From: Bryopsis sp. KO-2023
Taxonomy: Eukaryota > Chlorophyta > Ulvophyceae > Bryopsidales > Bryopsidaceae
NCBI GenBank assembly: GCA_030272585.1
Contig: BSYQ01000002.1
Location: 8,494,001-8,558,000 of the forward strand
Direction: 5' to 3'
DNA length: 64,000 nucleotides
Every line of letters begins with the position of its first letter. Position 1 is the first letter of the stretch. The translations under genes were made by a program, and so were the position numbers. Below, piece after piece: positions 1,159 through 38,298 of the stretch. Under the pieces are notes generated by a model that was not told the origin of the DNA, made no database searches, and saw only the letters and a program-made list of their open reading frames with translations.

Positions 1159-1170
1159 GAAATTTTTTGA

Positions 1171-11800: not shown

Positions 11801-11831
<31 letters not shown>

Positions 11832-15524: not shown

Positions 15525-15557
15525 TTAGGACAACAGTCTAGAACTACGTTGTCCTAA
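15525..15557 (+). repeat. Palindromic end site containing the 20-base TIR, B1
   Basis: The TIR ACAGTCTAGAACTACGTTGT (15533-15552) is embedded in perfect 10-base arms TTAGGACAAC and GTTGTCCTAA around a 13-base core, AGTCTAGAACTAC. Two inverted arms around a short asymmetric core is the usual layout of a tyrosine recombinase crossover site. At the A-block ends only the inner half of the palindrome is present. Confidence 0.65.
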
Positions 15558-15617
15558 ACAAAAGGGTGGCTTGATTTTTCTAGTTTCTTCTTCTTTCTTT
15601 CTTTCATTCTTTTAAAG

Positions 15618-18600
15618 AATCGTCAGGACATCGTGGAAACTGCTGTATGAAATCGCTGCACGCTCTGATTCCATCTTAGAGCATGCTGAATCTCTTGAGA
15701 GCCTGCGAATGTCGATGGAGGATACTCTTGAGGAAATCAGAGGGCTTCGGCATGGTATGGATATGGTGAATTCGGGCCTGTGGGTCCAGGCCCTGAATGG
15801 CCGAAGAAATTTGTTCAAGGAGGCTGTGGAAATGCTCCAAGTAGGTTAACGGTGGATCTACAAATAATGGTCACCTGCAAACGCTCATTTTTGTCTATTT
15901 AGAAACCATAATTGGAAGGAAGTGTTCTTCAATGTCTTGCAAAATATGGCTTTCTGGTTGTATCGGCCCAGATTGATGCAAGCATCACGCTGGTCCGCTC
16001 CTTTGTTTATTATCTTCTTTTTGCATCGATTATAGGTGATGGAAGCCGTTGTGCATTCCCAAGAGGCGTTGCAATTGTTGGATTTGGGAAGGGCGCTGCA
16101 GCACCGATCAAGACCTGTCCAGATTGCTCTGTGTGGGGCATCTCCCCATCGGCTTGGCAAACGGGATGTCTTCCATCACAGAACCAATGATGGGGGATAT
16201 TGTGGAGCAGATGCGCTGGAAGCAAACGGCCTCTGTGGTGCATTTGGCAGTGATGAATGCACTGGAGCGCTCTGATAAGCAGAATCAGAATGCAGCATGG
16301 GGGAAGGGGGGAGGTGGGGGTTGTCTTTCGCCCTTTGATGGGAATGTTCCAGGGCCATCAACGCACCAAAAATTTCCCAATGCTGTTTCGATAGTTTGAG
16401 AGCAACACCAACATTCGTATCGACGGAGAACATACACCCAGGAATATTCTTGTGTTGCTTCAAGTTTTAGACATCTATTGATAGATTTGCAGCAAAAAAA
16501 AAAATGATGGCCCTATTTTTCCCCATCAAAGACAATATGATACGAAGTGCCCAGCAATCGGAGTCTGTCTATTGACTAAGAAACGGTTGGTCTCAGGTTT
16601 AAGAGAGCGACTGCCATCTCCGTCAGCATCCGACCTGGTTCCGGGGAGGATCTCCAAATATATCTTCGCTGCTTTCGCTGTTGGGGCCTTGGCAAAACTG
16701 GCATGTTATCTGGTGAGAGCAGATTGAATGGCAACATCTGTCCTCGTAGAATGCTGTCTTTTATTGGAGTGCTTCTCTTGACACTGGCAAGCATCTTGAA
16801 GTTCGGTTGTCCTCCAGGATTCCTCAATCAAATCAGAGCTTCTGGGATCAACCAGTTAAAATCAGCACTCCGTTCTGTGATGGAAATTCTGTTGCCTCTG
16901 ATGGTGCGTGCTTCGGTGTCCGATGGCCAGGCAACCATTTGCAGACGCAATCTTTGGGGGATCAATGGAGAGCCTTCGTGGGAGAGCGTTTTCTGAAGCC
17001 GGTGGGTGCATGTTTGGCCGTCAAGGAGGCCTGATGCAAGCATTTCGTATGCATGAAATTTTTACTTTACGTGGAATGTTTTTCCTTCTTTCGTGGGGGG
17101 TGGAAGGGAGGGAGTGGAACTTTTCTTTTTTTCTCTATTTCTAGACAACTGGTGGTTGCTCTCGTCATTAGGGAGCTGTGGTTGCAGAACAGATCTGCTT
17201 AACCAATGTGGTGCGACAGCGAGTCGTCCGAGAGAAGCAATATGAACCCAAGGAAATGTGGCTAATTGACACCATCGCCCAGCTTCGTGTTGAGAGGAAT
17301 TTGCTCGTGATATACTGTCATCAATGAAATGGCTGTGGATATCCTCCAAGTTTTGGTGGAGACCATGCACAATCGATGGGCCAAGATGATGATGATTGTG
17401 ACTGGGAGGTAGGTATCTTGTTCCATCGAACAACAAAAAACAAAAAGTTCTACAGGGAGGGAAGGGGGGGGGGGGTTGCATAGACGTAGTTTTGGTGCTG
17501 TCCCGTGGTGGTGATTTCGAAAGGTAGCGAAATTGCATGTGATTTCAATGGTGGAGTGTTTCCATCAGGCCCAATGCAAGGCCCATCTGAAAGCTGCACA
17601 AGACCAAAACGTGGCCCAAGATTTCGGGGCCCTGGACTCCGGTAGATTTTGGAGCGAAATGTTAATCCAGAGTGGATAGACTGACGTCCAACAAAACCGG
17701 AAGCTGGAGTGGGGAATCCAATGGTGGTCAACAGATCCCCCGGATCAGGTGAGTGCTGCCACTTAAAATTTTATACATGCTTGAAAACTTCCATGGAATT
17801 GGATGAAAGATTCAACGCTGAAGCCACCAAAAATGTGTCTGTCCGGTAGGTGGACCCGAAATGCAACCAACGTTTGGCATCGATACATCGCAATATTTTA
17901 GTCCGCACTTCTCAAGAGAAACTTGATAAGGGATCCACAGGCTTTTGTGCTGGATATCTGTCCAGAAGGTTGCCACAGTTTGTTGATGGAGGGGTCCACA
18001 TCATCCAAAAATTGATACAACGCTCTGGAGCCTTACTTCGGCAACATGACCTATGCGCCGCACGCTGCCGGCATCCTTTTTCCGGAGATATACCTGGAAG
18101 AAATAAATCACGTTACGACAGGTCTGTTAGCCCCTCAGTGTCGAACGAATCTTCCAGTTGAGGGACAGGGGAAACGATGTTTTTCACAATATTGGATTGC
18201 TCAGGCCGAAGTACATCTCACCGACCCAGTGAGAAAATTCCTCAATCCAACGCACGCATCGACCCTCCTTTTCCTTTTTTGTTCAAGGTTCCAAGGGCAC
18301 TTGAAGCAGGATTTGAGGTCCCTTATAAAAGAGTCTATTCACCGTTGTATGGGGAGTTCATGCTGAGCATCAAGCTTGGAAGCAGCTGCATCGTCAGTTT
18401 CCCACAATACTACGTCAAAGATGGAAGGCCTCAGCAGCCAAGAAGCTCTGGATGCGTTACAAAGGGAAAAAAACCCGCCCAGCCATGATCGTGGGACAAT
18501 GGCCCTGGATGTTGTTTCCTTTTCTCGTCTCTTTGCCCTGTTTTTTTTAATCTGTTCTTTATCTTTCTCCACTTCGAAAAGACCGCACTGATGTTAGGTG

Positions 18601-19170
18601 TGGTCTGTTTTTTGTTTTTTTTAACAGGTGCGAGTCGCGATCAAGCAAACGCCCCAGGCAAAGAAAGGGCAGCGAAAGACCAGCATGTCCTTCATTTCCC
18701 GTACTTATGAAGCTCTGGAATGGGGGATCCAGGTGAGCGGATGCATCTCTTTCTCTATCTCTGAGATGTCCTTCATGTCGTGAGTTTCTTTGGATGGCTT
18801 CCCCCCACTAAAAAAAATAAAGAAAATGTTTCGCTTCGCCTCGTGCGACCCGTCTGCTGTATCAAATGAGCAATCCCACCGATTTGTTTTTTCTTTTTTC
18901 TTGGTGTCATTTTTTTGCCATGCGCAGCAATGGCTGGATCAGCACACGTTCGCATGCATCCCATAAAATACGGAGGAGGGCGCGAAACTCGTGTTGAATT
19001 CCTGGATGGGGCTGAACCACACTGTGGACAATAGCCAGCTCAACTTCAGGCACATGGAGAATGGGCCGTTGAGCTGGGTGATTTCGGATATCAAACGAGG
19101 GTGCCCGTTGCCCACTGGTGACAATGAGAAGAAAGGGGTCGAGCTGGATTGCTTCGAGTGCGATATTTGA
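15618..19170 (+). pseudogene. Degenerate multi-exon gene of block B, copy 1
   Basis: Several exon-like frames run from the TIR toward the protease exons. One ends at a GTAGGT donor (15618-15840) and joins 16036 onward in phase. A coding-like frame then continues only after removing one base from the CCCC at about 16147. Further pieces lie near 17160-17410, at 17535-17748 (in-frame TAG, good GTGAGT donor), 17900-18200 (in-frame TAA), 18629-18731, and 18928-19170 (TAA near codon 13). The frameshift and stops mark a pseudogene. I recognise no family. The gene is convergent with the recombinase-protease gene and may have been a second element-encoded protein. Confidence 0.45.
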
Positions 19171-19977
19171 TTCATGCTCAAGACAGATGTCAGGCATACA
19201 GGTCAGGCATACATCTAATTTTATACACATGTTTGATTTGATCATCAAACTGCGCCCTGATGCATTGCCTTATGAAAACAGCCCGACTCTTGTGGGTTCG
19301 CTCTCAAATCAGGCACCTGTTTTTACAAACATATTCCCAAGCTTGCTTTTCTAGAAACATTTCATACCAAGGCAGTCAGCATCTTGATGATATCCATGTT
19401 TGTGGGACCTGCCAGGCTTGTGACCATGTGAACCAATCTTGCGCTAAGGAATGGTTGGCTCTCCCCGTATGCTGCGACCTGATGTTCAGTCTCATTCAGT
19501 TGGAACTGCCATATTCAGTTGGAACTGCCATGGCCCTCTAAAGGTAAGAAGCTTTTACATACGATATTACATTTCAGTAGGTTCTTGAACTACATTCGCC
19601 AACATCTCTCTCTTCAACCGCCCCCTTTCTTCGAGCACATCTTCCAGTGGGCATGGAATCAAATATTTATCCACCAGAATTCGTTCCGCGAAAATCAAGA
19701 CGTACACCCCACAGCTGATAGTATCGGCCTAGACAAGAAAAACAATTACTCTTACGTTATTTTAGAATGTTAATGATAAGGATTGTTTTGCCTTTTTCTA
19801 GATCAGAGTGGGCAAATCACCTGGACCCGAGCCTGGTCCACAGCCACGACGGACCAATTCCCCTCCGAAGCGAGCGAACCCACCATCCGGCCCAAGCGGA
19901 CTGCTTTGTCAAAGAGCAAGGGGGGCGTGATGGCGAGGGAGTCGATGACCAGAAGTTGCCGATTGGAAGGTGAGAGA

Positions 19978-19997
19978 ACAGTCTAGAACTACGTTGT
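19978..19997 (+). repeat. Left 20-base terminal inverted repeat, copy 2
   Basis: Identical to 983-1002. Here the outside neighbour is block B1's proximal end (GGTGAGAGA) rather than the left-flank sequence, so this junction was made by rearrangement and is not an insertion site. Confidence 0.7.
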
Positions 19998-20953
19998 GGA
20001 TTCGCTCATTAAATGGATGTAATGACGAATTCGGATCCGCCATTCACGCCCACGGATCCGGTTCCAAAACGATGGTACCGGCTCGTCTTGGGACACCCGG
20101 TACCGGTCCCTTCGGATCAGGTACCAGGATTAGCGCCGCGCGAAGCGCGGCGCGAAATTTTTTGAGCCACATTAGTCATCATCACAAGTTTCTGTCGTGA
20201 CAGACTGATTCGAAACCAACTTCTAACAGATTCTGGCGGCTATTCTTGCTTGGGCAAAGTCGACGGAGTTGATTCGGACGGTTTGCTGAAATCGTTAGAC
20301 TATCGGGCGTCGCCAGACGTTAGACTGTTTCCCGATGGTTCGCAGGACAAAGTGGGTAACTTTTTCGTTGTGTGACGTCGTCGAGCTTGTTTCGATCAAT
20401 TTCCATGCTGCAGAACAACTTCGCTTGATCGGAACGTCCTCGACGACATCACACAACAGTATAGAAACGGAAAGTTAGTCTCGCAGTCACGCCCCCATCA
20501 CGACAACGTCGTTACTTTGAGGCCGAATCTTCGAGACGTCGTTAAGGACGTCAATATCAATTTTCGCAGACAGTTGCAGAACTCTCTCGTTCGAAATAAA
20601 GAAGCCGGCTTCGGTCGCCAAGAGAACGTGGGCAGTCTAGAAAGACTGTAAAGAAAAAAATGAAACCGACTCAGAGTGTCCCACACTCCACAGACTGCAG
20701 AGGAAAAAGCGGCTTGTGTCGTGAGAGAAGTGTGAGAAAGAAACGATGAATTCAGTTGCGGTTGCGTGACCATCACGACAGTGTCCTCATGTGACGTCTC
20801 TTTTTCCGCTGTGTGGCGTTTTCGAGTACGTTTGCAGCGCATGATTATTATTTTTCTTAATTGACGAATAAGTTTTTAATTCTTCATTTCAGAGTTTCAT
20901 TCTTTTTCATGCATTTTAATTGTCCTTTGTACTTCCTCTTTTTTTTCATGTAG

Positions 20954-23900
20954 TGCATGCATCAAGAGCAACAAAGATGCGATAGCATACCTGCAGCAAC
21001 ATCATCTTGAGCCCAAGGGTAAGAATTGTTGCGGTTTCCAGGATTCGAACCTGGTTAACAACCATTAACCGCGAAGCTATAATGAATTTTTTTATTCACT
21101 CTTATTTTTAGATGTTCATCAATTCCTGACCAAACGTGGGTTGAAAAAAAACGGGGAGTACGGCTTGCAAATCAAAGTGAAAGGTAAAAAAAAAAAAATC
21201 ACCTACCTAACCTTGCTGGCCAACGTGCATGCCGTCCACGGAGAGCCCTGGAGGTTTATCGAACCTCTTTTTGGCTCAACATGGGACTTGCCGCGTGTGG
21301 AGAAAAAACTGCGGGAAATTTGGGAATCTTCAGATTTACAATCCTTCATTGAAAGTAAGTAAAGATTTGATTTTCTTAATTTTAGAAGATAAAACAGAAT
21401 CTCAGAATATGTTTAATCCCCCCCCACACTTCTTTTTCCCTGTTTTAAACTGTAGAATAATCATATCATCCGGTTTTTTGTTTTGGAGTGGAAAATAAAA
21501 ATGCATTCTGAATTCCCCCTCCCCCCCTCCCAGTTTTTTTTCCTCCTCCCAAGGTTTCATCAATTTCCAATTCTCTTTTTGCATACATTGTACCTTTCTA
21601 TGCAGAAATCGGTGCACCTAATGATGAAATCCCTGACGAACCAACAACCGAAGGAATTATGGAAGACGAAGGAGAGCTGGTTGAAGCATCGACGATTCAG
21701 GAAATCTCTTCAAAGAAGGACGAGCCGAAGACGGTTGATGCACGTGGGGAAAAAGAGAAAAAAACAAAAAAACCAACCATGAATGTGAGAAAAAAATTTG
21801 CAGACATGTGCAAGCGAGCCTTAGAATCGAGAGATATCACTAAATTTTTGATCGCGATTGGGCTGAGTGAATCGATTGTTAAAAAATATACGGGACGGGA
21901 TTTGGATACCGCTTGCGAAGGACCTTCAACAACCCAACGCACCCTTCTTCATATCGAGAACATGATGACAGAGCAATCCCGAGCTACGCGGTGCACGGCG
22001 TATATGGATTTGAATGCATATATGGTAATTGTCAACCTTTTTTTAAGGGGGGGGGGAGTATATGCAATTCTGTTCATTGGTATTTGATTTTTTTTTTCGC
22101 ATGTAGAAGGGAAAAAAAATATGTATTTATTTGATTCATTTTTCCTACTTTTTTTTTCTTCCTCTTTTCCCGTTTCTCCCGTTTTTCCTGTTTTTCCTGT
22201 TTTTCCGATCCCCCCTATTTTCCCATCTCCTTGTTCCCTACCTACCCTACCCTACCCTACCTTCTTTCTTTTATTTATTTTCTTCCTCTTCCCTGTTTTT
22301 AGATATTTTCTATAACTCACCTGCAATCGGGCTGGTTGGTTGGCTGGCTGGTTGGTTGGCTTGCTGGCTGGCTGGCTGGCTGGTTGGCGGGCTGGCGGGT
22401 TGGTCGGTTGGTTAGCTGGCTGACTTCCACAACAGTCTGTCTAAAACACACGCAAAAGGCTCAAAAATTCTGTTGTTTAAGAACAATAATGATAGTTATT
22501 GATTTATTGTTGTTAATGCAGTTATGGTTGAGAGTTAAAGAAAATCGCGGCGATGAAGGGCCTTTCATGGTTGAAAATGGGATGGGATTAATGTACATCT
22601 ACGAATATGATAGTGGTGTAGTTCGTTTAGATGGCAATCAGCCATTCTTTCCAGAAACTTTTCAGGGGGGGGCATGGGAAAAGTACGAATTGGGTCACGA
22701 TGCTCTTAACACACTTGAGGTGGGACGGATGGAAAAAATGATTTCCAATCTCACCTTTTTCCAAACCATGCAACATGATTTGTTGCAAACCCCGGTGGTG
22801 ATGAAGTTTTCGACATACCCCTCGCTGGTGGCTTGCCTACGAGCGAAAGACAAACAAGCACCTGAGAAAAGAAAAAGGTAAGTAAGAAAAAAAATAAATT
22901 AATTAAGGTACAAAAAAATAACATTTACACTGATGCTTAACGTTTTTTCTGGATATTTTCGAACTCGTGTCTTTGTTTTTCCTATAACAAATTTTATTTC
23001 TATATATACTACTTTTCAATTTTATATATATATAGATCTGTATATATAGCCTACAACACACTTTCGTGAACGGGCTGCACTCAGCCGTTTGGCCTTGTGT
23101 AAACTACTTTTCAATTCAATATCTGTATATATACATACAAAAAAAAAAATCAGGAAAAAAGAATAAAAAATAGGTTGCACCAACACTCTCCTACTTTTTT
23201 TTCTCCTTCTTCTTCTTTTGAATAGGACAATATCAATCCACAGACATCCAACTGAAATATATAGAAAAAAATATTTTCGACAATATTATACTCATGAAAA
23301 CCTTGAAAATAAGAAACAAATGAATGGGATTAAATAAGAAATTCTTTTTTATTCTACTAAGGGATTTCAAAGATCGCCAGGAAACGGTTCCACTAGCACC
23401 AGGGATTGATTTGTTGATAAAAAAAAATCTTCAATCCCGCGAATGGCTCAGACTTGCTTGTACTTCACCTCACCGGGCACGTGTTCCTCTACGATGCCGA
23501 GCGATGTCAATGTCCCAGACTTTTAGTGTCTCCAGATTTGGAGACGCTAAGATCTGGGACATAGCCGATCTCTTCCCATTGTCATACCCGGTGAAGGCAG
23601 GGCATCAAGACATAAGGGTGTTGTACTGCGTTCAACAGACCCATAAAACACGCTCCGTAAGAAAGAGAAAAATAGTATAAAATTCAACAATTAAATTATT
23701 ATTATTATTTAAATCAAGCACTCTCAACCAGCCTTGGTGCCAGTTTTTTTCCCCCTGTTGAGTGAAAACAACAGATTATTAAAAAAAACACATATTTATT
23801 ATCGTAGAGTTTGACGTTTACAGGATTCCCGACCTGCTGACTGGGCAGTCCTTCCGCGTCATCGTGATCCTCTTCAATGCCCAATTGGATCGATTGGACT

Positions 23901-26900
23901 GTGGCTAGCATTCCGGAATCTTGTGCTCCTTGAACCATTTCCCCCGCTCGACAAACACAAGCGGGAGTGGTGCGTCCTAATCAACAAATAATAGATTAGC
24001 CGACATCAGCCCAAAACTTTGTTTCCACTATTCTCAACCACAACCAGAATATCTAGGTAGAAATATCCGTCTTTCTTTCTTCAGAAAAACTCCTACCACA
24101 GAAATGACGTCCTATTTATGCACAATATTTCAAAATCAAATCCCACTCACTCAAAATATTTTGCTCTCATTCAGCCCCTTTTTTTTTTCAAATTCACAAT
24201 CTTTCTCCGCCCCCCCCCACCCCCCACTATCCATTATAAAAAAAACACACCCCAGTGAATTTCCAGACTAATAAGTAAGCCATCAATATTTTTCCTGTGT
24301 TTTTTTCTTTTCTTGACACATTTCTGGAAAGATTGTCAGCAAATTAGTGCTGCAAGTGGCCCCCGTATCAAAGAAACACATGGTATAGCGAATTTTAACT
24401 AATAATCAATCTTTTTCCTGTTATTTATCTATTTATATTTTTTTTGGACACATTTCTGGAAAGATTGTCAACAAATCAGTGCAGCAAGTCCCCCCTCCCC
24501 TTCTCCTCAAAATTTTTCTGTCACATATTGATACTTGCCACTTTTCTCACACACTCAATTTCCCAGAAGTATTACTCACAGAAAAAAAAATATATATATA
24601 TATACTTAAAATGTTCCCCTTTTTTTCCAGAAGGGGGGTATCTTCATATCATCTCTTTTAGGCCCCCGACAGACCCCTTTTTGTATTCTGCCAATGCTTG
24701 CGGGTGAATGAAGCCAAGACAAATCTGGAATTCTTTTGTTTTCACCTGAAGGTTAAAACACAATCAAAATCAGACGACGAACACAACAAACAGTAAAATT
24801 TTATCCCTTAAGAAAATAAAATAAAAAGAAGAGAAGATGCACGCGCCTTCGCACTCATGTAATATATATAAATATATAATAATATAATATATGGTTGCAT
24901 ATACTCTGCGTGCGCTTGCCCTCGGTCAAGCGCTTTTTCTGACGCTCTCGGCCGTACTACCGTGGCGCTTCCCAGTGTCGCCTCGCCGGGGCTCGTGCCT
25001 CTGCCCGGTGCTGGTCGCGCCGTCGTCGGCCGTGCGATTTTCCGTGCATTTCCGTGCATTCTTCCCTGTTCCTTGCGGGCCTCCGATTCCCCAGCTTGCT
25101 ATGTCGCCTAAACCCAAGACTACCCTTTACCCGCCCCCCGAGTGTGCCGCGCATTGGTGGGCTACGGACCCTGAGGCAGGGGATGGCTTGATCCAGAAAT
25201 TGGAGGCGACCGTACTGCTCTCCTGCACCTCGTCGGAACTCCAGCTCCTCTGTCGCGAGGCGAAGTTGCGCTACCTCCAGACGAAGGCGGACAACGTGAA
25301 GAACCTGTTAACGTTCTGCAAACTATATCGTGCCCAGCGGAACCCCAAGAAGAAACCCGGTGAAAAACGTACTGCCCCTCCTTCGCCCGTCCGCCCCGTT
25401 CCTGGATCTCGTGCTCCTCCGTCCCGCACCGTCAAGAAGTACGTCAAGATGTTTGACGATGCGAGACCCAGCCCAATTCCGGAGGAAGCCCCCTTCCCTC
25501 CCCCCACCCCTGGCTCAGCTTCCCCTCGCTCTTCATCCCCGTTGCCGCCCCCAACCCAACCTCCCCCCCAGTCTTCTCCCTCCCCTCTTCCCCCCTTTTC
25601 CCAGACTGACATCTCCCAGGAGGTTATTGGGGCCCTGGAATCCTTCCAGCTGTTTGTGGCTTCTGAAGAGGAGAAAACTGGCAGCCCCATCAAGGACCCT
25701 GTTTTGCTGCAAGTGAAGGAGCAGATGGTGCGAGCCCATGCGCTGATGCAAGGCTGGCTGGCTGCCTCTCCCCCTCCTCCCCCTCCTCCCCCTCCCCCTC
25801 CCCCTCTGCCCACCGCAGAGATCAAACGCACTATGGCACAAGTGCTTAAGGAGGGTCTCCCCTCCTCGGCCCCTCCCCCCGCTGTTGCCCCCTGGAATGA
25901 TTCCCTGACCAAAATCTACAACCCCGGTGACCCGAAATTCTCCAAGGTGTACATCCAGCCGCATTCTTTCGGCCTCCGGTTCCAGTCTATGTTATCACCC
26001 CCCAGCCAGGTGATCCGAGTGAAGCGCACTGTTACCGGGGGATTCAAGGTCATGTGTTCTATGGGCCCTCTCCCTGACTTCATTGACATTGAGGGGTATG
26101 GCTCTTGGGCTGCCTGGCGGAAACCAGTTGCTGATACGATGGACATTGTGGTGGAACGAGTGGCTAAGGATGTTACTTCCGGGGAGTTGCGGCGGGACCT
26201 GTTGCCTGCTAACCCCATTTTGGAGCCCACAGATTGCATCTCCAATGTTCAGCGTCTCCATCGCAAGGCCCCTGGGAAGGTGGATCTTGAACCCTCCCTC
26301 TCGGTCCGGCTCACCCTACCCATCCCTTTGGCAGAGGCCATCCTGGCGCAAGGCTTCCTCTACTTCCAATTTGAACCCCACAAAGTGCGTTTGTATGAAC
26401 GCTCTTCCCGCTGCCACAACTGTGGGAAGACTGGACATCTCGCCTCAGCATGTTGGAGCCAATGAAGGGGCTCCGTGTGGGCCAAATAAACATGGGCAGA
26501 AGGACAATTGCCCTGGACACTCTACAAGGAATTCTACAGAAATTTGCCTTTGAGGTGATCGTGATCCAAGAACCTACTTTTGATTTAGCGAAAGGGAAAA
26601 ACCTAGTGCCGGGCTACACGACTTATACTAATCGGGGCTGGAATGTCACGCTGGTCCGGAATAATATTGAGGTGACTGAGGTCATGGATGCGGAAGACAA
26701 CGTTCTTTCGGTCGTCCTTGCCCTCCCCTCTGCCAGGGTGGGGATCGTGAATGTTTATCTCAATCACTCGACGGGGACTGGGCTGGGGAATTGGCGCCTC
26801 CACCTTTCCACGCTCAAGCCCAGGGTGCCGTACCTTTTGACGGCTGGGGATGTCAATGGGAGGTCTGCTTGGTGGGGCGATCGGGCGACCCCCACAAACT

Positions 26901-29900
26901 ATGTTGGTGGTCTGGTGGAAGAGCTGATTCTGGATACTAATATGCATGTGTTGAACCACTCCGGGGCGTCCCCTACGTATTACTCTACTTGTGGCCACCC
27001 CCCCTCCTGGCTGGATCTCACCCTCTGCTCTGGGGCGCTCCTTCCTTTCGTGACCAACTGGGATTCCCATCCGGATCTTGAATGGCACTCAGACCATCGT
27101 GGACTGGTGACGGAGCTGAACTTTTCTCCCCCTCGCGCCCAAGGATTCCCTATCAAGGATTTTGCTCGGACTGATTGGACTGCCATTCACGCTGTGATTG
27201 AGGCGGACACCGCTGGGTGGGTAAACCGATTTCGACGCTGCTCCTCCCCTTCTACTTTGGACTCCCTAACATCAGAGCTTACCCAGAGCTGGACATCCAC
27301 CTTCGCGGCCCACACCCCTATCAAGATGGTCCGCAATGACTGGGTCCCCTGGTGGTCCCCGGAGCTCCGTGGTGCCAAACGCCTGTGTGGCAGATTGCAA
27401 CGGCAATGGAAAGCCCACCCTACCCCCGCCAACCACAGCCTGTTCAAACAAGCTCGGACTCAATATCGCCGGGCCATTGATCAGGCCCGTACTGCATCGT
27501 GGCTGAAGTTTTGTGAGGGTGTCACTCGGGAGAATATGTGGAAAAAACTGAGGCGTATTACGCGACCTAGACTGCCCGACATTCCCCGCCTGGACCCCGA
27601 GGCTGGCTGGCCTCCTGACCGGGTGATGAAGGACAGTGATAAGGCCCACATTCTGGCAGAAGCCATGTTTCCCCCTTCCCTCCCTCCCTCCCCCATTGAT
27701 GAAGCTACCTTTTGTACCGAAGTGGCTGCCAAGCTCGGCACAGGGGCCAGTCCTGAGGCCTCCGTCTCTGAGGCTGATGTCTGGTATGCCATCCGTTTAC
27801 TCAAGACTAAGAAAGCCCCTGGCATTGATGGCCTCCCAGCCGAATGGTTCAAGCACACGTCCAAGACGAGTATTCGGGTTTTGGCGGCTTTATTCACGAC
27901 GAGTCTCCAGCTTGGGTGGACCCCTACTGCTTTCAAGGTGGCCAGGGTCATCGCTATTCCTAAAACCCCCTCCCCCAGCCCGGACCCCAAAAAATATCGG
28001 CCCATTAGCCTTCTGCCAGTTATGGGCAAAATTCTGGAGAGCATTGTTAAGCGGCGCCTGATTCGGTTTTTGGAAACGAACAATAAATTGGCGGAGGCTC
28101 AGTTTGGCTTCCGCAAGGGCCGGACTACGGGCGGGGCTTTGTGGAAGATTACCTGTGACCTTTCCCACCATCAGAAGCGTGGCAATCGTTCGATTCTGGC
28201 TTCCCTTGACATCTCCAAAGCTTATGACCTAATCTGGCACCCCGGTCTACTTCATAAGATGATTCAGAAAGGTATCCCCTTGGAGCTGGTGCGGTGGGTG
28301 GCGAGTTTTGTGTCCAAGCGGCGCATGGTGGTGAAAGTGCGCAATGGCCAAGCGACTCGTAACCTGGACTTCGGGCTGCCGCAAGGTTCCCCACTATCCC
28401 CCATCCTGTTCCTCATCTATATCGATGACCTCCTCGATACCCTCAGCCACAGCTGCCCCCTCCTCCGCCTCCAAGCCTTCGCCGATGATCTACTCCTCTG
28501 GACCAGTGGACCTGAGGCCCCAGCCCTTCATGCTCGGCTTAATGACGCCCTTGCCCTGGTGGGACACTGGAGTTCGCAATGGAAGGTGACTTTCAACCCT
28601 TCCAAATGCTCAGTTTTGGAAGTTTCGCGGAAGCATTCGAAGCCCCCCATCGTCGTTCTTCTACATGGACAACGTCTCCCCGAGGTCTCCACTCTGAGGT
28701 ACCTTGGTGTTGTTTTCAACTCCAAGCTCACATGGTCTGACCACGTGAGTGCCCAAGTCCAGAAAGGGAAAGTCTGGCTCGGCACCATCCGCAAGCTGAT
28801 TCGTCATTCGTTCGGTACCCATCCCCTCGTCTTGGATCGGCTGGTGAGGCTCTGTCTCCTCCCAAAAATTTTTTACGCTGCTGAAATCTGGGTGGGCGTT
28901 ACGGCAATCAAATCCGGGTGCGGGCAATTGGATGCGCTTTTGCGGATGGCGGTGATTCTTAAGGATGGCCTCTTCTCTTCTACTTCGGTGGATGCGGCCT
29001 TGGTCTGGGGTGGTCTCCCTCCCAGTGAATTCTACATTAAACTAGTGGCCAGCCTGAACTACATTCGCTTGCGCAGCCGCGGTCACAATCTATTGGACGA
29101 CTTCCCACCCCCTCGGAATCACCGTTTTCCGGGCCCTTTGGAGATCCTCCGAGGCCAGGTCAGGAAGTGGACCCGCACGGAGGGGATGGCAGATTTATTG
29201 GTGGAGCTAGATGGGTTGGCTGGCCAGCCCCGGCAACCGGGAGTCCGGAGCACTAAAGCGGTTGGGAAGGCGATTGCGTTACTATTAAGGGATTTCTACA
29301 CTAATGGATGGGCCCGCCAATGGCAATTTTCTGAGAAGGGTCGCCTCCTTTACGAACTGCTGCCCCAACCCCAGTTGGATTATGATTCTTCCTGGAGGGA
29401 ATCCCTCTCCCGCACTACGATCGCCCAAACTGGCCGGTTTGCCATTGGGCATGGTGATATCCCTGTCCACCTCCACCAAATCTTTGCCTCTTCCCCGGAT
29501 TGCTGGTTTTGTGCTGCCCCGGGAACGCGCCACCACCTCTTGTGGGACTGTGCCGCCCTCCACTCTGTCCGAGTCCATTGCTGCCCCGACCCGGCGTCTG
29601 AATGGGATCTAGAGCTCTTGCGAGGCCCAGCGGGGGTCTCCCTGCTTGCTCAGTTCTGTGCTTCTATGTACCGCAAAAAGGGGCAGCTCTAGCTTTGTTG
29701 GGGCTGGTGGGATCTCTCAAGGTCCCTCCCTTGGTTTTTGGGTTTTGTTGATGTTTTGTTTTGGTTTCTGCCTATACCCCCTTTCTTGACCAGCACTATG
29801 CTGGTGGGGTCTTTTCTCTCCCCCCTTGGTTTCGGGGGTTTTTTCGCTTCGGACTATCTCTGGGTTTATTTTTATTTTGCTCGCTCTCTGGATTCATAAA

Positions 29901-30795
29901 TGCTCTACACGGGTCAGTTCGAATTTTCGGTAGATAATTTGTTAGTCTGGACATTTCTCTAGCACTTTGGTGGGACAGTGGGTTTTTCCCTTTTTACAGG
30001 CTAGCCACAGACCGGGTTTTCTATACGCAATAATCCGTCAAGTGGGTTGTATCGGGACATGGAACAGTATTCGGCACCTATTTCTGAGTCAGCCTATAAC
30101 ACTTTTTCGTGAAACGGGCTGCACTCGGCAATCTCATTTGCCGTGTGTAAAAAATTTCAATATCAAAAATAATAATATAATATATATTATTCATCTATGT
30201 AATTTTTCTGACACAATTTTCTTGTTTTTTTTTTTTACTTAGGTATAATATAAAACTTTTCCCCACCCTGACCGGAAACACCCTCGGTTCGACAACATCA
30301 TATGATCAAGTTAACAAAAACCTACAAGCAACCGGAACACACGCCGGTCCTACCAACCACGATGATAGGAAAACTGGTGCAATGCTTGCAAGGTGATATA
30401 TTTCAAAAAAAAAAAAAAGGGAAGTGATACAAACATTTTTCACGATTCGATTTAATTTTTTTCTATTGCTCTTCTTACCTTTTCCAGATTGCACGGGGTG
30501 TCGATGCCGGAGCTTCAAAGCCTTGGCTTTTGGACGGAGGGGAAGAAGGGGGCCAGGGTATGTCACGAGGCGTACGGTCGATTCCAGTTGGCGGATACGG
30601 TGGCTCGCCTCGCCGGGTTCCTCGACGGGGATGAAGGATACTTCATTGAGCGGGCAGCCTTGGACCCCCTCCAATCTTCTGATCCCCTTATCCATGCAAT
30701 GGCGCACGCCCTCTTCCCGGAACTCGACGATCCAGGCTACGAACGCCGCGTGTATGAGGTGAAAAAAGAAAAAAAAAACAAAGTTAAAACAAAAT

Positions 30796-30826
<31 letters not shown>

Positions 30827-33800
30827 AACCCTTTTACTTTGTAGAAAGGGGACGATAGCGCAGCGAGAGGAGCGTTGGAGGCACTACGTTACATCAGGGT
30901 GGTATTTTGGCAAGACTTGCCGAGCATTCATGACCTCTTTCCCGAGCTTCCAATATTCTCTTCGACGAATTTTCACATGGAGGCATTCCTGATCTGGAAA
31001 GAGACGCAAAAAAAACATATTCGAAGGCTCCACGATATAAACAAGATTAAAACACAAGGGAAAGACCTTACGGCAAACGATTTGGGGGTTCTCCACAGAA
31101 TCTCAGAAATCGAAACAAAAGTGGAAACAGGGCTAAGCGACATATACGAAAAACTCACAGAACTTACATCACAAAATGAAGAACGGCTCCGAGAAAAGGA
31201 GGCAATGCCAAGCCAGGTTGCGGGCTGCAACCATTCACAATTTCAGGCTACCAATGAAGATGCCCCAGAGCCTCCACAAAATGATGTCCTAGATCGACCT
31301 CGCAAACTGCAAAAAAGGCCCACAGAATATCCGTACAAACAACTTCGAGGACTCGCAGGTAAGAATATTTTTCCTGAACTGTGGGTGTAGGTGAAGCAAA
31401 ATATTAGTCTGAAAATGCAAAAAATATTCTTCCTGAACTGTGGGTATAGGATAAGCGATATATAAGTCTGAAAATATAAAATCATCTATTTCTGTTATTT
31501 TATAGGTTATGACGACGTGAGGACTATATGGAAAGAGTGGTTTGAAGAGGGAGCAAACCTTGGTGGCGGATGCACAGGGCCTCCTCTTCAAATTGCCGAG
31601 AAGCAACGAGCTGATGGCGACTTTGGGTTCCCTATGAAAGGAGGTGTCAAGAAGGCTGTCCAAGATAGGGCTATCCTTGTGACCTTTGTCAAGAAATGTG
31701 CAGACAAGATTTCAGGTCGGTCAGATTCCAAATTAAAAAAAAAAAAAAAAAAAATTAACTTGCATTTCAATCCAGTTTTGTTATTATGAGCATATATAAT
31801 TGAAACATCTGACCAACAGATGTTGTCTATATTTTATTTTATTCTACAGTCTAGGGAATTCAAACATTTCCATGTGGCTGCGGGAACATCCTGTGGATGA
31901 TATATATATACATGTATATATATTTTTAATTTCAGTGATTATTTCGCATTTTCTCTTGACGGGGGTATTCACAAAACATCTGTTGCTCCCTCTGAGAGTT
32001 GAACTCAGGACCTCCCGCTTACAGAACGGGTGCTCTAACCAACTGAGCTAAAGGAGTTTCGCTGAAATCCGTCTTCATTGTTTCGTCTTTATCTTTTAAC
32101 GGGAAGGGGAGGGCAGCTCTGGAACATTACGTAGCACCAGAATTTTTTTCCTCATCTGAGTTTCCGATGCCGGGTGCAATCAGGCCGCAGGAACATCCAT
32201 GGACGACATATTTTCATCAGTATTTTTGCATTTTCTATTTAGGGGGGGGCCTGAAACATAATATACCATGTGCAGCCGAAAAGGATTTTTTTATGAGGTC
32301 TGAGAATGCTTATTAAATGCTTACCTTCATGCGGACCCCCACTGTTTATTTCTCAACGGAGAAGCGTCTCGTTTTGAATCTGTTTTTTTTGCTTGCAGAA
32401 GTCGAGCGAGTTCCCTACAACACAGGAGTTGAACAAGCTCTTACACGGGTGGAAACCTACAGACTTCGACTTGGGAGAGCAAAAAAAGAAACACAAAAAG
32501 GGAAAAAAATTGGTTTAAAATTCGACGAAAAAATTTCTCTACGAGGGCTTAGGGATGAGGTGAATGATGTTTCCAAAGGGAGGGTTGATGTACCTTACCT
32601 TAGGCCAAGCTCCCCCGTGACGGTCTCCACCGACGCTCCGAAGGTTGCTCCGAACGATGCTCCGAAGGTTGCTCCGAACGATGCCCCGAACGATGCTCCG
32701 AACGATGCTCCGAACACCACAAACACCACACTTCAGCCACGGAGAGAAAGGAATCGCAGTTTGGGAATTCTTCGGTCAATTAACTCTCCCTTGACAACGG
32801 ACACATTGGCAACCACCCAGGGTATGCTCAATGATGTCGTCATTGATTTCGGGGTAAGTCGTGTAAGTTTGAGGGTGGCGATAATCTGGAAATCCTTAAA
32901 CAAATACACGGAAAAAGTGTGACAATGCATGAATGAAGTGAATACACATATACATCAAGCTTGAACACATGCCTCGCCTTTTTGTTTTTTGCAGTTGGCT
33001 CGTTTGAAGGGAGATAGGGTGGCGGTGTTGGGATGCTTGGCAGCTACCGTGGCACTCATGGAGGGCAACCCCAGTGGGCTGCGTGGGTGGGCTGCCCGGG
33101 CACGCTTGTCCTCGGCTCGGCTTGTTTTTCTTCCACTGAACCACAATAATCATTGGTTCGTGAATTTCTGTGGATTTTCAGTGCCTGCCGAAAGGGCCAT
33201 TAAGAGAAAAATAAAATCAGGATTTCTGTGGATTTTCAGTGCCTGCAACGAAAGGGCCATTAAGAGAAAAATAAAATCAGGATTTCTGTGGATTTTCAAT
33301 GCCTCTATTCGAATGACCCGTCATCACAAGAACTCAAGACTGTACAATAACTATACAAAAAAGAAACAAGAACCCACAATTTTTGTCTTGCATAAAATTA
33401 TTGATATTAAAACCACCCCCGGAGTTCAATCAAATGAACGAATGATTAAATTTCGTTCAGCGCCGTTCGTTATATCTACAGGATGCTCATTGTTCTCTCA
33501 CCTTCCAATCGGCAACTTCTGGTCATCGACTCCCTCGCCATCACGCCCCCCTTGCTCTTTGACAAAGCAGTCCGCTTGGGCCGGATGGTGGGTTCGCTCG
33601 CTTCGGAGGGGAATTGGTCCGTCGTGGCTGTGGACCAGGCTCGGGTCCAGGTGATTTGCCCACTCTGATCTAGAAAAAGGCAAAACAATCCTTATCATTA
33701 ACATTCTAAAATAACGTAAGAGTAATTGTTTTTCTTGTCTAGGCCGATACTATCAGCTGTGGGGTGTACGTCTTGATTTTCGCGGAACGAATTCTGGTGG

Positions 33801-33904
33801 ATAAATATTTGATTCCATGCCCACTGGAAGATGTGCTCGAAGAAAGGGGGCGGTTGAAGAGAGAGATGTTGGCGAATGTAGTTCAAGAACCTACTGAAAT
33901 GTAA
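20954..33904 (+). CDS. Crypton/Ndc10-type tyrosine recombinase, GCR1_C-like domain and Ulp1 protease fusion
   Basis: Fourteen in-phase exons: 20954-21018, 21112-21354, 21606-22024, 22522-22877, 23362-23656, 23824-23969, 30243-30392, 30488-30758, 30845-31358, 31506-31715, 32399-32853, 32995-33155, 33482-33650, 33743-33904 (TAA). They give about 1200 residues plus an unplaced 5' end. Recombinase motifs in order are SRFGDAKIWDIADLF (Arg), THKTR (Lys), LPRHRDPLQCPIG, TNHDDRKTGAMLA (HxxR), LQSLGFW (Trp), CHEAYGRF (likely Tyr), then ARLAGF and ALFPEL. GCR1_C-like: VRTIWKEWFEEG (near 825). Ulp1/C48: LNDVVIDFG, FLPLNHNNHW (His), LLVIDSLA (Asp), RVQ (Gln), ADTISCGVYVLIF (Cys). It would cut or process a SUMO-like or its own substrate and recombine DNA in the nucleus. 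The 33493/33494 block border lies inside exon 13, yet reading is seamless. Confidence 0.75.
21031..21072 (-). tRNA. Truncated tRNA-like element in an intron, copy 2
   Basis: Identical to 2036-2077: a perfect T-arm inside a 6-bp acceptor-like stem, lacking room for full D and anticodon arms. It lies antisense in the first mapped intron of the recombinase gene. Confidence 0.35.
23036..23133 (+). mobile_element. 72-base LINE 3'-tail insertion, copy 2
   Basis: The block A2 copy of 4041-4138 has the same 13-base target duplication. It carries one of the two base differences noticed between the A blocks (C at 23085 where copy 1 has T at 4090). The LINE 3' UTR has a G run-in at that place, so it does not polarise the change. 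Confidence 0.7.
25101..26465 (+). CDS. LINE ORF1, CCHC zinc-knuckle protein, copy 2
   Basis: The translation equals that of 6106-7470: a proline-rich middle and a C-terminal C-x2-C-x4-H-x4-C knuckle. The frame extends upstream to an ATG at 24891 that overlaps the target-site duplication, so 25101 is the preferred start. The stop overlaps the ORF2 start at 26450. Confidence 0.8.
   Translation: MSPKPKTTLYPPPECAAHWWATDPEAGDGLIQKLEATVLLSCTSSELQLLCREAKLRYLQTKADNVKNLLTFCKLYRAQRNPKKKPGEKRTAPPSPVRPVPGSRAPPSRTVKKYVKMFDDARPSPIPEEAPFPPPTPGSASPRSSSPLPPPTQPPPQSSPSPLPPFSQTDISQEVIGALESFQLFVASEEEKTGSPIKDPVLLQVKEQMVRAHALMQGWLAASPPPPPPPPPPPPLPTAEIKRTMAQVLKEGLPSSAPPPAVAPWNDSLTKIYNPGDPKFSKVYIQPHSFGLRFQSMLSPPSQVIRVKRTVTGGFKVMCSMGPLPDFIDIEGYGSWAAWRKPVADTMDIVVERVAKDVTSGELRRDLLPANPILEPTDCISNVQRLHRKAPGKVDLEPSLSVRLTLPIPLAEAILAQGFLYFQFEPHKVRLYERSSRCHNCGKTGHLASACWSQ
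26450..29692 (+). CDS. LINE ORF2, AP endonuclease and reverse transcriptase, copy 2
   Basis: The 1080-residue translation is the same as copy 1 at 7455-10697, with APE endonuclease (DVNGRSAWWGD, SDHRGL), reverse transcriptase (YRPISLLPV, GLPQGSPLSP, FADDLLLW) and the C-terminal CWFC/HHLLWDC zinc motif. No interruption is present. It is transcribed in the same direction as the host recombinase gene, so an unspliced host transcript would also carry it. Confidence 0.95.
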   Translation: MLEPMKGLRVGQINMGRRTIALDTLQGILQKFAFEVIVIQEPTFDLAKGKNLVPGYTTYTNRGWNVTLVRNNIEVTEVMDAEDNVLSVVLALPSARVGIVNVYLNHSTGTGLGNWRLHLSTLKPRVPYLLTAGDVNGRSAWWGDRATPTNYVGGLVEELILDTNMHVLNHSGASPTYYSTCGHPPSWLDLTLCSGALLPFVTNWDSHPDLEWHSDHRGLVTELNFSPPRAQGFPIKDFARTDWTAIHAVIEADTAGWVNRFRRCSSPSTLDSLTSELTQSWTSTFAAHTPIKMVRNDWVPWWSPELRGAKRLCGRLQRQWKAHPTPANHSLFKQARTQYRRAIDQARTASWLKFCEGVTRENMWKKLRRITRPRLPDIPRLDPEAGWPPDRVMKDSDKAHILAEAMFPPSLPPSPIDEATFCTEVAAKLGTGASPEASVSEADVWYAIRLLKTKKAPGIDGLPAEWFKHTSKTSIRVLAALFTTSLQLGWTPTAFKVARVIAIPKTPSPSPDPKKYRPISLLPVMGKILESIVKRRLIRFLETNNKLAEAQFGFRKGRTTGGALWKITCDLSHHQKRGNRSILASLDISKAYDLIWHPGLLHKMIQKGIPLELVRWVASFVSKRRMVVKVRNGQATRNLDFGLPQGSPLSPILFLIYIDDLLDTLSHSCPLLRLQAFADDLLLWTSGPEAPALHARLNDALALVGHWSSQWKVTFNPSKCSVLEVSRKHSKPPIVVLLHGQRLPEVSTLRYLGVVFNSKLTWSDHVSAQVQKGKVWLGTIRKLIRHSFGTHPLVLDRLVRLCLLPKIFYAAEIWVGVTAIKSGCGQLDALLRMAVILKDGLFSSTSVDAALVWGGLPPSEFYIKLVASLNYIRLRSRGHNLLDDFPPPRNHRFPGPLEILRGQVRKWTRTEGMADLLVELDGLAGQPRQPGVRSTKAVGKAIALLLRDFYTNGWARQWQFSEKGRLLYELLPQPQLDYDSSWRESLSRTTIAQTGRFAIGHGDIPVHLHQIFASSPDCWFCAAPGTRHHLLWDCAALHSVRVHCCPDPASEWDLELLRGPAGVSLLAQFCASMYRKKGQL
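31985..32057 (-). tRNA. tRNA-Thr(TGT)-like gene in an intron, copy 2
   Basis: Identical to 12990-13062: full cloverleaf on the minus strand with TGT anticodon, C33 and an A1-C72 mismatch. It is antisense within intron 31716-32398 of the recombinase-protease gene. Confidence 0.65.
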
Positions 33905-34300
33905 TATCGTATGTAAAAGCTTCTTACCTTTAGAGGGCCATGGCAGTTCCAACTGAATATGGCAGTTCCAACTGAATGAGACTGAACATCAGGTCGCAGC
34001 ATACGGGGAGAGCCAACCATTCCTTAGCGCAAGATTGGTTCACATGGTCACAAGCCTGGCAGGTCCCACAAACATGGATATCATCAAGATGCTGACTGCC
34101 TTGGTATGAAATGTTTCTAGAAAAGCAAGCTTGGGAATATGTTTGTAAAAACAGGTGCCTGATTTGAGAGCGAACCCACAAGAGTCGGGCTGTTTTCATA
34201 AGGCAATGCATCAGGGCGCAGTTTGATGATCAAATCAAACATGTGTATAAAATTAGATGTATGCCTGACCTGTATGCCTGACATCTGTCTTGAGCATGAA

Positions 34301-37300
34301 TCAAATATCGCACTCGAAGCAATCCAGCTCGACCCCTTTCTTCTCATTGTCACCAGTGGGCAACGGGCACCCTCGTTTGATATCCGAAATCACCCAGCTC
34401 AACGGCCCATTCTCCATGTGCCTGAAGTTGAGCTGGCTATTGTCCACAGTGTGGTTCAGCCCCATCCAGGAATTCAACACGAGTTTCGCGCCCTCCTCCG
34501 TATTTTATGGGATGCATGCGAACGTGTGCTGATCCAGCCATTGCTGCGCATGGCAAAAAAATGACACCAAGAAAAAAGAAAAAACAAATCGGTGGGATTG
34601 CTCATTTGATACAGCAGACGGGTCGCACGAGGCGAAGCGAAACATTTTCTTTATTTTTTTTAGTGGGGGGAAGCCATCCAAAGAAACTCACGACATGAAG
34701 GACATCTCAGAGATAGAGAAAGAGATGCATCCGCTCACCTGGATCCCCCATTCCAGAGCTTCATAAGTACGGGAAATGAAGGACATGCTGGTCTTTCGCT
34801 GCCCTTTCTTTGCCTGGGGCGTTTGCTTGATCGCGACTCGCACCTGTTAAAAAAAACAAAAAACAGACCACACCTAACATCAGTGCGGTCTTTTCGAAGT
34901 GGAGAAAGATAAAGAACAGATTAAAAAAAACAGGGCAAAGAGACGAGAAAAGGAAACAACATCCAGGGCCATTGTCCCACGATCATGGCTGGGCGGGTTT
35001 TTTTCCCTTTGTAACGCATCCAGAGCTTCTTGGCTGCTGAGGCCTTCCATCTTTGACGTAGTATTGTGGGAAACTGACGATGCAGCTGCTTCCAAGCTTG
35101 ATGCTCAGCATGAACTCCCCATACAACGGTGAATAGACTCTTTTATAAGGGACCTCAAATCCTGCTTCAAGTGCCCTTGGAACCTTGAACAAAAAAGGAA
35201 AAGGAGGGTCGATGCGTGCGTTGGATTGAGGAATTTTCTCACTGGGTCGGTGAGATGTACTTCGGCCTGAGCAATCCAATATTGTGAAAAACATCGTTTC
35301 CCCTGTCCCTCAACTGGAAGATTCGTTCGACACTGAGGGGCTAACAGACCTGTCGTAACGTGATTTATTTCTTCCAGGTATATCTCCGGAAAAAGGATGC
35401 CGGCAGCGTGCGGCGCATAGGTCATGTTGCCGAAGTAAGGCTCCAGAGCGTTGTATCAATTTTTGGATGATGTGGACCCCTCCATCAACAAACTGTGGCA
35501 ACCTTCTGGACAGATATCCAGCACAAAAGCCTGTGGATCCCTTATCAAGTTTCTCTTGAGAAGTGCGGACTAAAATATTGCGATGTATCGATGCCAAACG
35601 TTGGTTGCATTTCGGGTCCACCTACCGGACAGACACATTTTTGGTGGCTTCAGCGTTGAATCTTTCATCCAATTCCATGGAAGTTTTCAAGCATGTATAA
35701 AATTTTAAGTGGCAGCACTCACCTGATCCGGGGGATCTGTTGACCACCATTGGATTCCCCACTCCAGCTTCCGGTTTTGTTGGACGTCAGTCTATCCACT
35801 CTGGATTAACATTTCGCTCCAAAATCTACCGGAGTCCAGGGCCCCGAAATCTTGGGCCACGTTTTGGTCTTGTGCAGCTTTCAGATGGGCCTTGCATTGG
35901 GCCTGATGGAAACACTCCACCATTGAAATCACATGCAATTTCGCTACCTTTCGAAATCACCACCACGGGACAGCACCAAAACTACGTCTATGCAACCCCC
36001 CCCCCCCTTCCCTCCCTGTAGAACTTTTTGTTTTTTGTTGTTCGATGGAACAAGATACCTACCTCCCAGTCACAATCATCATCATCTTGGCCCATCGATT
36101 GTGCATGGTCTCCACCAAAACTTGGAGGATATCCACAGCCATTTCATTGATGACAGTATATCACGAGCAAATTCCTCTCAACACGAAGCTGGGCGATGGT
36201 GTCAATTAGCCACATTTCCTTGGGTTCATATTGCTTCTCTCGGACGACTCGCTGTCGCACCACATTGGTTAAGCAGATCTGTTCTGCAACCACAGCTCCC
36301 TAATGACGAGAGCAACCACCAGTTGTCTAGAAATAGAGAAAAAAAGAAAAGTTCCACTCCCTCCCTTCCACCCCCCACGAAAGAAGGAAAAACATTCCAC
36401 GTAAAGTAAAAATTTCATGCATACGAAATGCTTGCATCAGGCCTCCTTGACGGCCAAACATGCACCCACCGGCTTCAGAAAACGCTCTCCCACGAAGGCT
36501 CTCCATTGATCCCCCAAAGATTGCGTCTGCAAATGGTTGCCTGGCCATCGGACACCGAAGCACGCACCATCAGAGGCAACAGAATTTCCATCACAGAACG
36601 GAGTGCTGATTTTAACTGGTTGATCCCAGAAGCTCTGATTTGATTGAGGAATCCTGGAGGACAACCGAACTTCAAGATGCTTGCCAGTGTCAAGAGAAGC
36701 ACTCCAATAAAAGACAGCATTCTACGAGGACAGATGTTGCCATTCAATCTGCTCTCACCAGATAACATGCCAGTTTTGCCAAGGCCCCAACAGCGAAAGC
36801 AGCGAAGATATATTTGGAGATCCTCCCCGGAACCAGGTCGGATGCTGACGGAGATGGCAGTCGCTCTCTTAAACCTGAGACCAACCGTTTCTTAGTCAAT
36901 AGACAGACTCCGATTGCTGGGCACTTCGTATCATATTGTCTTTGATGGGGAAAAATAGGGCCATCATTTTTTTTTTTGCTGCAAATCTATCAATAGATGT
37001 CTAAAACTTGAAGCAACACAAGAATATTCCTGGGTGTATGTTCTCCGTCGATACGAATGTTGGTGTTGCTCTCAAACTATCGAAACAGCATTGGGAAATT
37101 TTTGGTGCGTTGATGGCCCTGGAACATTCCCATCAAAGGGCGAAAGACAACCCCCACCTCCCCCCTTCCCCCATGCTGCATTCTGATTCTGCTTATCAGA
37201 GCGCTCCAGTGCATTCATCACTGCCAAATGCACCACAGAGGCCGTTTGCTTCCAGCGCATCTGCTCCACAATATCCCCCATCATTGGTTCTGTGATGGAA

Positions 37301-37853
37301 GACATCCCGTTTGCCAAGCCGATGGGGAGATGCCCCACACAGAGCAATCTGGACAGGTCTTGATCGGTGCTGCAGCGCCCTTCCCAAATCCAACAATTGC
37401 AACGCCTCTTGGGAATGCACAACGGCTTCCATCACCTATAATCGATGCAAAAAGAAGATAATAAACAAAGGAGCGGACCAGCGTGATGCTTGCATCAATC
37501 TGGGCCGATACAACCAGAAAGCCATATTTTGCAAGACATTGAAGAACACTTCCTTCCAATTATGGTTTCTAAATAGACAAAAATGAGCGTTTGCAGGTGA
37601 CCATTATTTGTAGATCCACCGTTAACCTACTTGGAGCATTTCCACAGCCTCCTTGAACAAATTTCTTCGGCCATTCAGGGCCTGGACCCACAGGCCCGAA
37701 TTCACCATATCCATACCATGCCGAAGCCCTCTGATTTCCTCAAGAGTATCCTCCATCGACATTCGCAGGCTCTCAAGAGATTCAGCATGCTCTAAGATGG
37801 AATCAGAGCGTGCAGCGATTTCATACAGCAGTTTCCACGATGTCCTGACGATT
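34301..37853 (-). pseudogene. Degenerate multi-exon gene of block B, copy 2
   Basis: Mirror copy of 15618-19170 on the minus strand. The shifted CCCC run (here GGGG near 37324) and the in-frame stops are the same as in B1, so the damage predates the duplication. The gene converges on the protease stop at 33904. No family recognised. Confidence 0.45.
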
Positions 37854-37913
37854 CTTTAAAAGAATGAAAGAAAGAAAGAAGAAGAAACTAGAAAAATCAA
37901 GCCACCCTTTTGT

Positions 37914-37946
37914 TTAGGACAACGTAGTTCTAGACTGTTGTCCTAA
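37914..37946 (-). repeat. Right terminal inverted repeat within palindromic end site, B2
   Basis: The TIR lies inverted at 37919-37938 and is flanked by TTAGGACAAC and GTTGTCCTAA arms, the same 33-base site as 15525-15557. It is the presumed right end of the element that begins at 19978. The sequence after it (TGTCCTAACACC) does not repeat the left-flank bases before 983, so no target duplication can be claimed. Confidence 0.65.
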
Positions 37947-38147
37947 CACCCATCAGAAGTAATCGAAAGTAATCGTAAGTAGTTCTTCTCACTTCTTATC
38001 GTTGCAATGCTTCACACCAACACCACCCTCATCTTACACCAACTGCTCAGGCGATAGCCTTCTGCTAACAAGAGATCTGACTACATTACTGATTGATTTA
38101 TTGATTGAAAGTCCTGGAAGCCTACCACAACCTCCAGCTGATCTCAC

Positions 38148-38298
38148 CAGGTATCCACTCTGAGTCTCGAGAGCCTCCAATGGGACCGTTCACCCTCTCA
38201 TAAAATCCTCTTGGAAGTACAATGTTGGCACTTGTCTCAATGCTCAGGACAAGGGCACTGGGTCCTCCTGAAGGTAACGTGATCTTGTAGTCATCAAA
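38148..38298 (-). pseudogene. Possible aspartyl-protease-like exon, copy 2
   Basis: Mirror copy of 15173-15323, outside the element's right terminal repeat. The active-site motif reads ETS in place of DTG, and the donor GTGAG is kept. As flanking DNA it may be the remains of the host gene next to the original insertion. The family assignment is tentative. Confidence 0.3.

Follow-up and report, generated by a model that had tools for sequence, protein, structure and literature searches.

The window, a stretch of 64,000 nucleotides from Bryopsis sp. KO-2023 (contig BSYQ01000002.1, positions 8,494,001 to 8,558,000), carries a mobile element that is very probably a DNA transposon of the Crypton type, resembling CryptonF most closely and extended by a Ulp1-type (C48) peptidase domain. 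A single gene is predicted to encode a protein of at least 1204 residues, consisting of an N-terminal region, an NDC10-type tyrosine recombinase (YR), a GCR1_C-like segment and the C48 domain. The predicted fusion of recombinase and protease in one protein is well supported, and the order of recombinase followed by C48 recurs in two further families of the genome.

In terms of domain content, the joined protein matched the recombinase-like Pfam family NDC10_II at residues 438-696 (E 4.6e-15, covering positions 61-316 of the 317 in the profile) and Peptidase_C48 at residues 1066-1171 (E 2e-6; 28.2 bits for the full protein and 33.6 for the domain, with a cut-off of 20.7), both over their cut-offs. 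The recombinase carries R419, H547, R550, W573 and Y587, which include the R-H-R-Y set, and the protease contains, in order, H1094, D1111, Q1151 and C1157. In the C48 motif the glutamine is located six positions before the cysteine. We take these residues of both domains to be the catalytic ones, a choice that is consistent with the alignment to the related C15 protein described below. The complete YR active site and the Ulp1-like catalytic set claimed in a preliminary description of this DNA are thus borne out, by the residues R419, H547, R550 and Y587 with the NDC10_II match and by the four protease residues with the C48 match, while the GCR1_C segment named alongside them remained below the Pfam cut-off in the window copy. 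Among sequences in the PDB, the protease domain matched SENP5 (E 0.0013), yeast Ulp1 (E 0.012) and, as the top match, 6gzu, a “conserved membrane protein” (E 0.00016). The recombinase region matched nothing significantly in the PDB, the best candidate being yeast CBF3 subunit A (E 0.28).

The gene was rebuilt independently of the earlier exon list, and its outer coordinates, 20954 and 33904, came out identical. The 14 exons (Table 1) join into a frame of 1204 residues, devoid of internal stops and ending in TAA, with AG at 14 of 14 acceptors and GT at 13 of 13 donors; the remaining two forward frames of the joined exons contain 46 and 61 stops. The agreement in phase is by itself weak evidence, because the exons were picked by hand with the reading frame in view. 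That the frame is real beyond chance is indicated by comparison with a second copy of the element, on C4, from which it differs with a ratio of nonsynonymous to synonymous substitution (dN/dS) of 0.17 and an excess of third-position changes (22/21/71 by codon position). By the same measure, the two alternative forward frames had ratios of 1.41 and 1.22, and the reverse-strand frames 0.28, 1.3 and 1.94; the one with 0.28 has the same third positions. Values were below 1 in each part of the protein, including the YR part (0.18) and the C48 part (0.12; 8 synonymous and 3 nonsynonymous differences). Moreover, exon 14 differs in length from its C4 counterpart by 3 bases with the frame kept, and exon 11, a linker, differs by 42 bases net, through gaps of 48 and 6 that are each divisible by three, its frame being open in both copies. 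The proposal that 14 exons join in phase into one protein is upheld at the DNA level by the GT-AG borders, the length of the frame and its conservation.

The window contains two copies of the element, arranged head to tail (copy 1, 983-19980; copy 2, 19978-38974), the right part of copy 1 being inverted; the gene described above is that of copy 2. The extent of the element is taken from copy 2 because it is collinear with the C4 copy (C4:2328829-2342589, minus strand), with the same ends and unlike flanks: the main pieces are 89-95% identical, the ends coincide, and the flanks of the two copies, when compared, did not match each other. The C48 exons fall within the unit common to the window (C2) and C4. 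Once a long interspersed nuclear element (LINE), which is missing in C4, is subtracted, the element measures about 13.7 kb. This LINE is a non-long terminal repeat (non-LTR) retrotransposon with endonuclease and reverse transcriptase open reading frames (ORFs), and is present in both array copies. Similarly, the intron between exons 10 and 11 contains, in both copies, a tRNA-Thr (TGT) called by ARAGORN on the minus strand (12989-13062 and 31984-32057).

Terminal inverted repeats are lacking, as in CryptonF: the two ends of the element, ACAGTCTAGAAC... and ...CGAAAGTTCAC, differ on direct reading, and a comparison of the first with the last 200 bp gave only 9-base inverted matches (E 0.17), located away from the ends. 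Where the ends would be joined, AGTTC-N8-GAACT forms an inverted repeat of 5 bp that suits the 6-8 bp spacer of YR sites (PMC3212892, in the portion of the text available); it is given little weight because such a repeat is expected, on a rough calculation by hand, at about 1.5% of random junctions. The final 33 bp of the right end also occur alone at L039 1501-1533 (C14:1831271-1831303), and no further significant match to the element was found in the 3 kb around this site. Downstream of the gene (33905-38974), a second gene was sought among ORFs of at least 55 residues on both strands by comparison with C4. Many of these had pN/pS values around or over 1, stops or gaps that shift the frame, and some reached 0.23-0.3 on few differences, with none standing out; a decayed or short gene may nevertheless be present in this part.

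Searches of the genome by domain family yielded 9 C48 matches at 8 places, 14 NDC10_II matches at 11 places and 7 GCR1_C matches. These counts are lower bounds: the C48 search missed the exons of the window itself, each of which is probably too short to be detected singly. In the C15 family, seven exons form one frame from the first recombinase arginine to a stop beyond the C48 domain, and the joined protein, 30% identical to that of the window, matched NDC10_II (4.4e-11) and C48 (9.6e-26), with a borderline GCR1_C match (cut-off 23) that reached 23.6 bits when the segment was scored by itself and 18.6 bits within the joined protein. The third family is divided between C10, in which recombinase, GCR1_C-like exon and first C48 exon are followed by an interruption, and a C1 partner, in which the exon with the C48 cysteine is kept and the recombinase part is missing; read by eye, its GCR1_C-like and C48 exons are in matching phase. 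The three families agree in that a single codon base is left at the first intron downstream of the GCR1_C-like segment, with the next exon in phase (by eye for C10/C1).

Within the flanks examined, each domain was also detected apart from the other. No recombinase was found in the flanks of five other C48 places, as covered by about 5 kb upstream of C6:2100471, 4 kb at C12:42812 and 1.5 kb at C7:1632412, C7:5145786 and C13:2296065. Conversely, no C48 was found with the recombinase genes on C12 and C3 (searched over about 3 kb downstream) or with the gene at 60.6 kb of the window, nor within the 1.5 kb flanks of C4:4768510, C6:466510, C11, C1:3167742 and C6:405538; the C48 queries in these flank comparisons were the window and C15 sequences, by which distant relatives could be missed. 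The recombinases at C3:6600334 and C4:4768510 obtained equal scores (NDC10_II E 3.1e-10 and GCR1_C E 4.2e-11 each). The gene at the end of the window (60600-64000, continuing into L017 1-1440) is a second one of NDC10_II type, with a weak Pfam match (E 0.036) and a last exon that is GCR1_C-like by eye, and no C48 was found downstream in 10 kb of L017. The C48 loci at which the flanks examined contained no recombinase (e.g., C7:1632412, C6:2100471 and C12:42812) would accord with a host Ulp1 gene having come to lie beside a Crypton by accident. Such an origin has next to no probability for the window, and is already contradicted by the C4 copy, as the C48 exons belong to a unit that C2 and C4 have in common within different flanks, and the same order appears again in C15 and C10/C1.

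Several observations weigh against the interpretation as a Crypton encoding a recombinase-protease fusion. The GCR1_C match of the window copy scored 13.7 bits (E 0.076), under the cut-off of 23. The gene model was read from DNA alone; exon 1 lacks an ATG, and the model is provisional at its 5' end. An ATG at 20335 (donor GTGTGA), also present in C4, was the sole start candidate among the donor patterns tried and was set aside as weak and unconvincing. The comparison covered just two copies of complete length, one of which, on C4, contains a frame shift caused by a one-base length difference in exon 4. The possible terminal direct repeat is only 2-3 bp long (TTC in C4, AC in C2), with the ends uncertain by about 3 bp; CryptonF elements were taken to have short ones of 4-6 bp, and those of oomycete and diatom Cryptons are given as 5-6 bp in the available part of PMC3212892. 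In the C15 protease an asparagine replaces the catalytic aspartate, so that not every copy can be active. Among the copies of the third family that were examined, no single one bears both the recombinase and the exon with the C48 cysteine. A tree of six protease sequences, by which a single capture of the Crypton C48 domains was considered, had no branch at the support mark (the best, at 84/90, joined C15 with the C6 protease), and this line was abandoned. Finally, the linker encoded by exon 11 is weakly constrained, with a dN/dS of 0.47 that became 0.49 on realignment at a higher gap cost (6 synonymous and 9 nonsynonymous differences; 18 of 151 codons dropped).

This linker, as the least constrained part of the protein, and the reading of the joins from DNA would both suit an arrangement of two adjoining genes in one element, one for YR and GCR1_C and a separate one for C48, which has a counterpart in some CryptonS elements reported to encode an additional C48 protein (PMC3212892, as far as its available text goes). 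We consider this arrangement unlikely: there is neither a stop codon nor a frame break between exons 10 and 12, the differences in linker length from C4 are divisible by three, and the joins after the GCR1_C-like segment are in phase in two other families. A single recombinase-protease gene thus remains the preferred interpretation.

The combination of YR, GCR1_C and C48 is already in print, in a 2011 paper on CryptonF that we take to be by Kojima and Jurka. Its text credits CryptonF with YR and GCR1_C, to which a C48 peptidase is added in CryptonF-2_PS of Phytophthora sojae and its relatives (PMC3212892). The belief, expressed in the preliminary description, that no well-described element combines all three is contradicted by these elements, while its Crypton-type recombinase with a C-terminal Ulp1/C48 protease is well supported. 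The window element is accordingly well supported as a further example of the published YR and C48 kind of Crypton, and not as a new kind; in the literature searched, a Crypton with C48 was found described in PMC3212892 alone. CryptonF-2_PS and the oomycete CryptonF resemble it in encoding YR and a C48 peptidase, a likeness by description in which C48 need not be in the same protein as YR; they also encode GCR1_C, to which the window copy has a match below cut-off. The present element differs in its 14 or more exons, its length of about 13.7 kb without the LINE and its terminal direct repeats of 3 bp at most. CryptonS elements share the C48 peptidase, but theirs is an additional protein in elements without GCR1_C (same source, same portions), whereas here it is in frame with a GCR1_C-like segment. 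The transposases of Ginger1 and Mutator also bear Ulp1 domains, for which a role in transposition or DNA repair was suggested in the available part of PMC2836005; unlike the tyrosine recombinase described here, they are DDE transposases. Yeast Cbf2/Ndc10 shares the NDC10_II profile, but according to PMC3212892, in the text available, has not retained the recombinase catalytic site.

A recombinase-bearing element outside CryptonF, forming a clade of its own, is a rather unlikely alternative, which would agree with the short or absent terminal direct repeats and with an identity of just 30% even to another family of the same genome. It would also agree with the outcome of two protein searches, in each of which 8000 candidates were scored: the single-sequence search yielded no relative at E 0.01, and the two-row alignment search yielded one, P0001, which matched in the C48 part only (C48 over cut-off; SWIM not significant at E 0.42; Mutator-like by eye). 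To our knowledge, Cbf2 has no C48 domain. In favor of CryptonF, NDC10_II is over its cut-off here and GCR1_C is over its cut-off in the C15 segment only, and these are the domains that link CryptonF to Cbf2 and Gcr1 (PMC3212892, available portions).

The breakpoints of the inversion in copy 1 are the joined element ends and a site about ten bases into exon 13, and the two junctions are reciprocal, with ACA at both and zero bases lost. The near left flank of copy 1 belongs to a different repeat. The protease frame of copy 1 proceeds past the histidine via MLIV, continues through 23 unrelated residues and stops, and its protease therefore lacks D, Q and C; its recombinase exons are intact, since both differences between the copies are intronic. 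The inversion would best be explained by the same recombinase acting on the joined element ends and on a second site in exon 13. It is less likely, although a serious possibility, that the array (A, inverted B, A, B) does not reflect one chromosome and arose through misassembly or from two molecular forms mixed together: the copies are 99.985% and 100% identical, and the array rests on assembled sequence. However, the junctions are reciprocal and coincide with the element ends that the C4 copy independently defines, and real molecules are probably needed behind such junctions. If recombinase action is accepted, a self-made switch is conceivable, in which the recombinase flips the 3' part via its own protease exon and so converts a recombinase-plus-protease form into one with a broken protease, though we regard this as a distinctly improbable extension. 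The C10 protease exon, which also breaks after TTGT, was considered as a case of the same mechanism and rejected, as the sequence that follows, which starts with TGATAAGG, looks by eye like an LTR-type insertion.

A 1284-bp insert elsewhere in the window (50231-53126) is enclosed by a perfect direct repeat of 806 bp, which contains an ORF judged by eye to be ankyrin-like. The insert opens with a unit (51037-51895) in which 74-bp perfect inverted ends surround a further tyrosine recombinase ORF (51107-51829), whose match to Phage_integrase is under the cut-off (E 0.0044).

Table 1. Coordinates of the element, its predicted exons and the array in the window.
Feature	Position	Strand	Remarks
Complete element, copy 2	19978..38974	+	Collinear with C4:2328829-2342589(-), common ends
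Exon 1	20954..21018	+	No start codon, upstream exon not settled
Exon 2	21112..21354	+	Joined frame
Exon 3	21606..22024	+	Joined frame
Exon 4	22522..22877	+	Joined frame; C4 copy differs by one base in length
Exon 5, YR, first catalytic Arg (R419)	23362..23656	+	Joined frame, residue positions
Exon 6, YR	23824..23969	+	Joined frame
LINE (endonuclease and RVT_1)	24893..30167	+	Intronic, exons 6 and 7 on either side; not in C4; ends approximate
Exon 7, YR, H547-x-x-R550	30243..30392	+	Joined frame, residue positions
Exon 8, YR, W573 and Y587	30488..30758	+	Joined frame, residue positions
Exon 9, end of NDC10_II and linker	30845..31358	+	Exon alone: NDC10_II E 2.5e-6
Exon 10, GCR1_C-like segment	31506..31715	+	Weak match, E 0.076
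Exon 11, linker bearing repeats	32399..32853	+	In-frame open in C2 and C4
Exon 12, C48, H1094	32995..33155	+	Joined frame, residue positions
Exon 13, C48, D1111 and Q1151	33482..33650	+	Joined frame, residue positions
Exon 14, C48, C1157 and stop codon	33743..33904	+	Joined frame, residue positions
3' part of element	33905..38974	.	No frame stands out as conserved
Left part (A) of copy 1	983..14498	+	Equals 19978-33493 except 2 of 13,516 bases, both intronic (self-comparison)
Right part (B) of copy 1, inverted	14497..19980	-	100% reverse complement of 33491-38974
Inversion junction J1	14496..14498	.	TGT (ACA on other strand) common to internal site and right end of element
Inversion junction J2	19978..19980	.	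ACA common to internal site and left end of element
Internal point in exon 13, copy 2	33491..33493	.	Corresponds to inversion breakpoint of copy 1

In a working element, the recombinase would excise the element as a circle and insert it elsewhere, the GCR1_C-like segment would bind DNA, and the predicted protease, acting at the site of recombination, may strip a tag such as SUMO or NEDD8 from the recombinase or from proteins of the host. Ulp1-type proteases occur in several unrelated transposons. The genome described here offers an internal comparison, in which diverged recombinase families with an in-frame protease occur beside recombinase genes with no protease found in the flanks examined, and this comparison allows testing whether the protease aids transposition. 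The near-identical array, in turn, supplies recombination junctions that are open to direct testing. Of most interest are the diverged recombinase-protease families in one genome, together with the self-inverted array.

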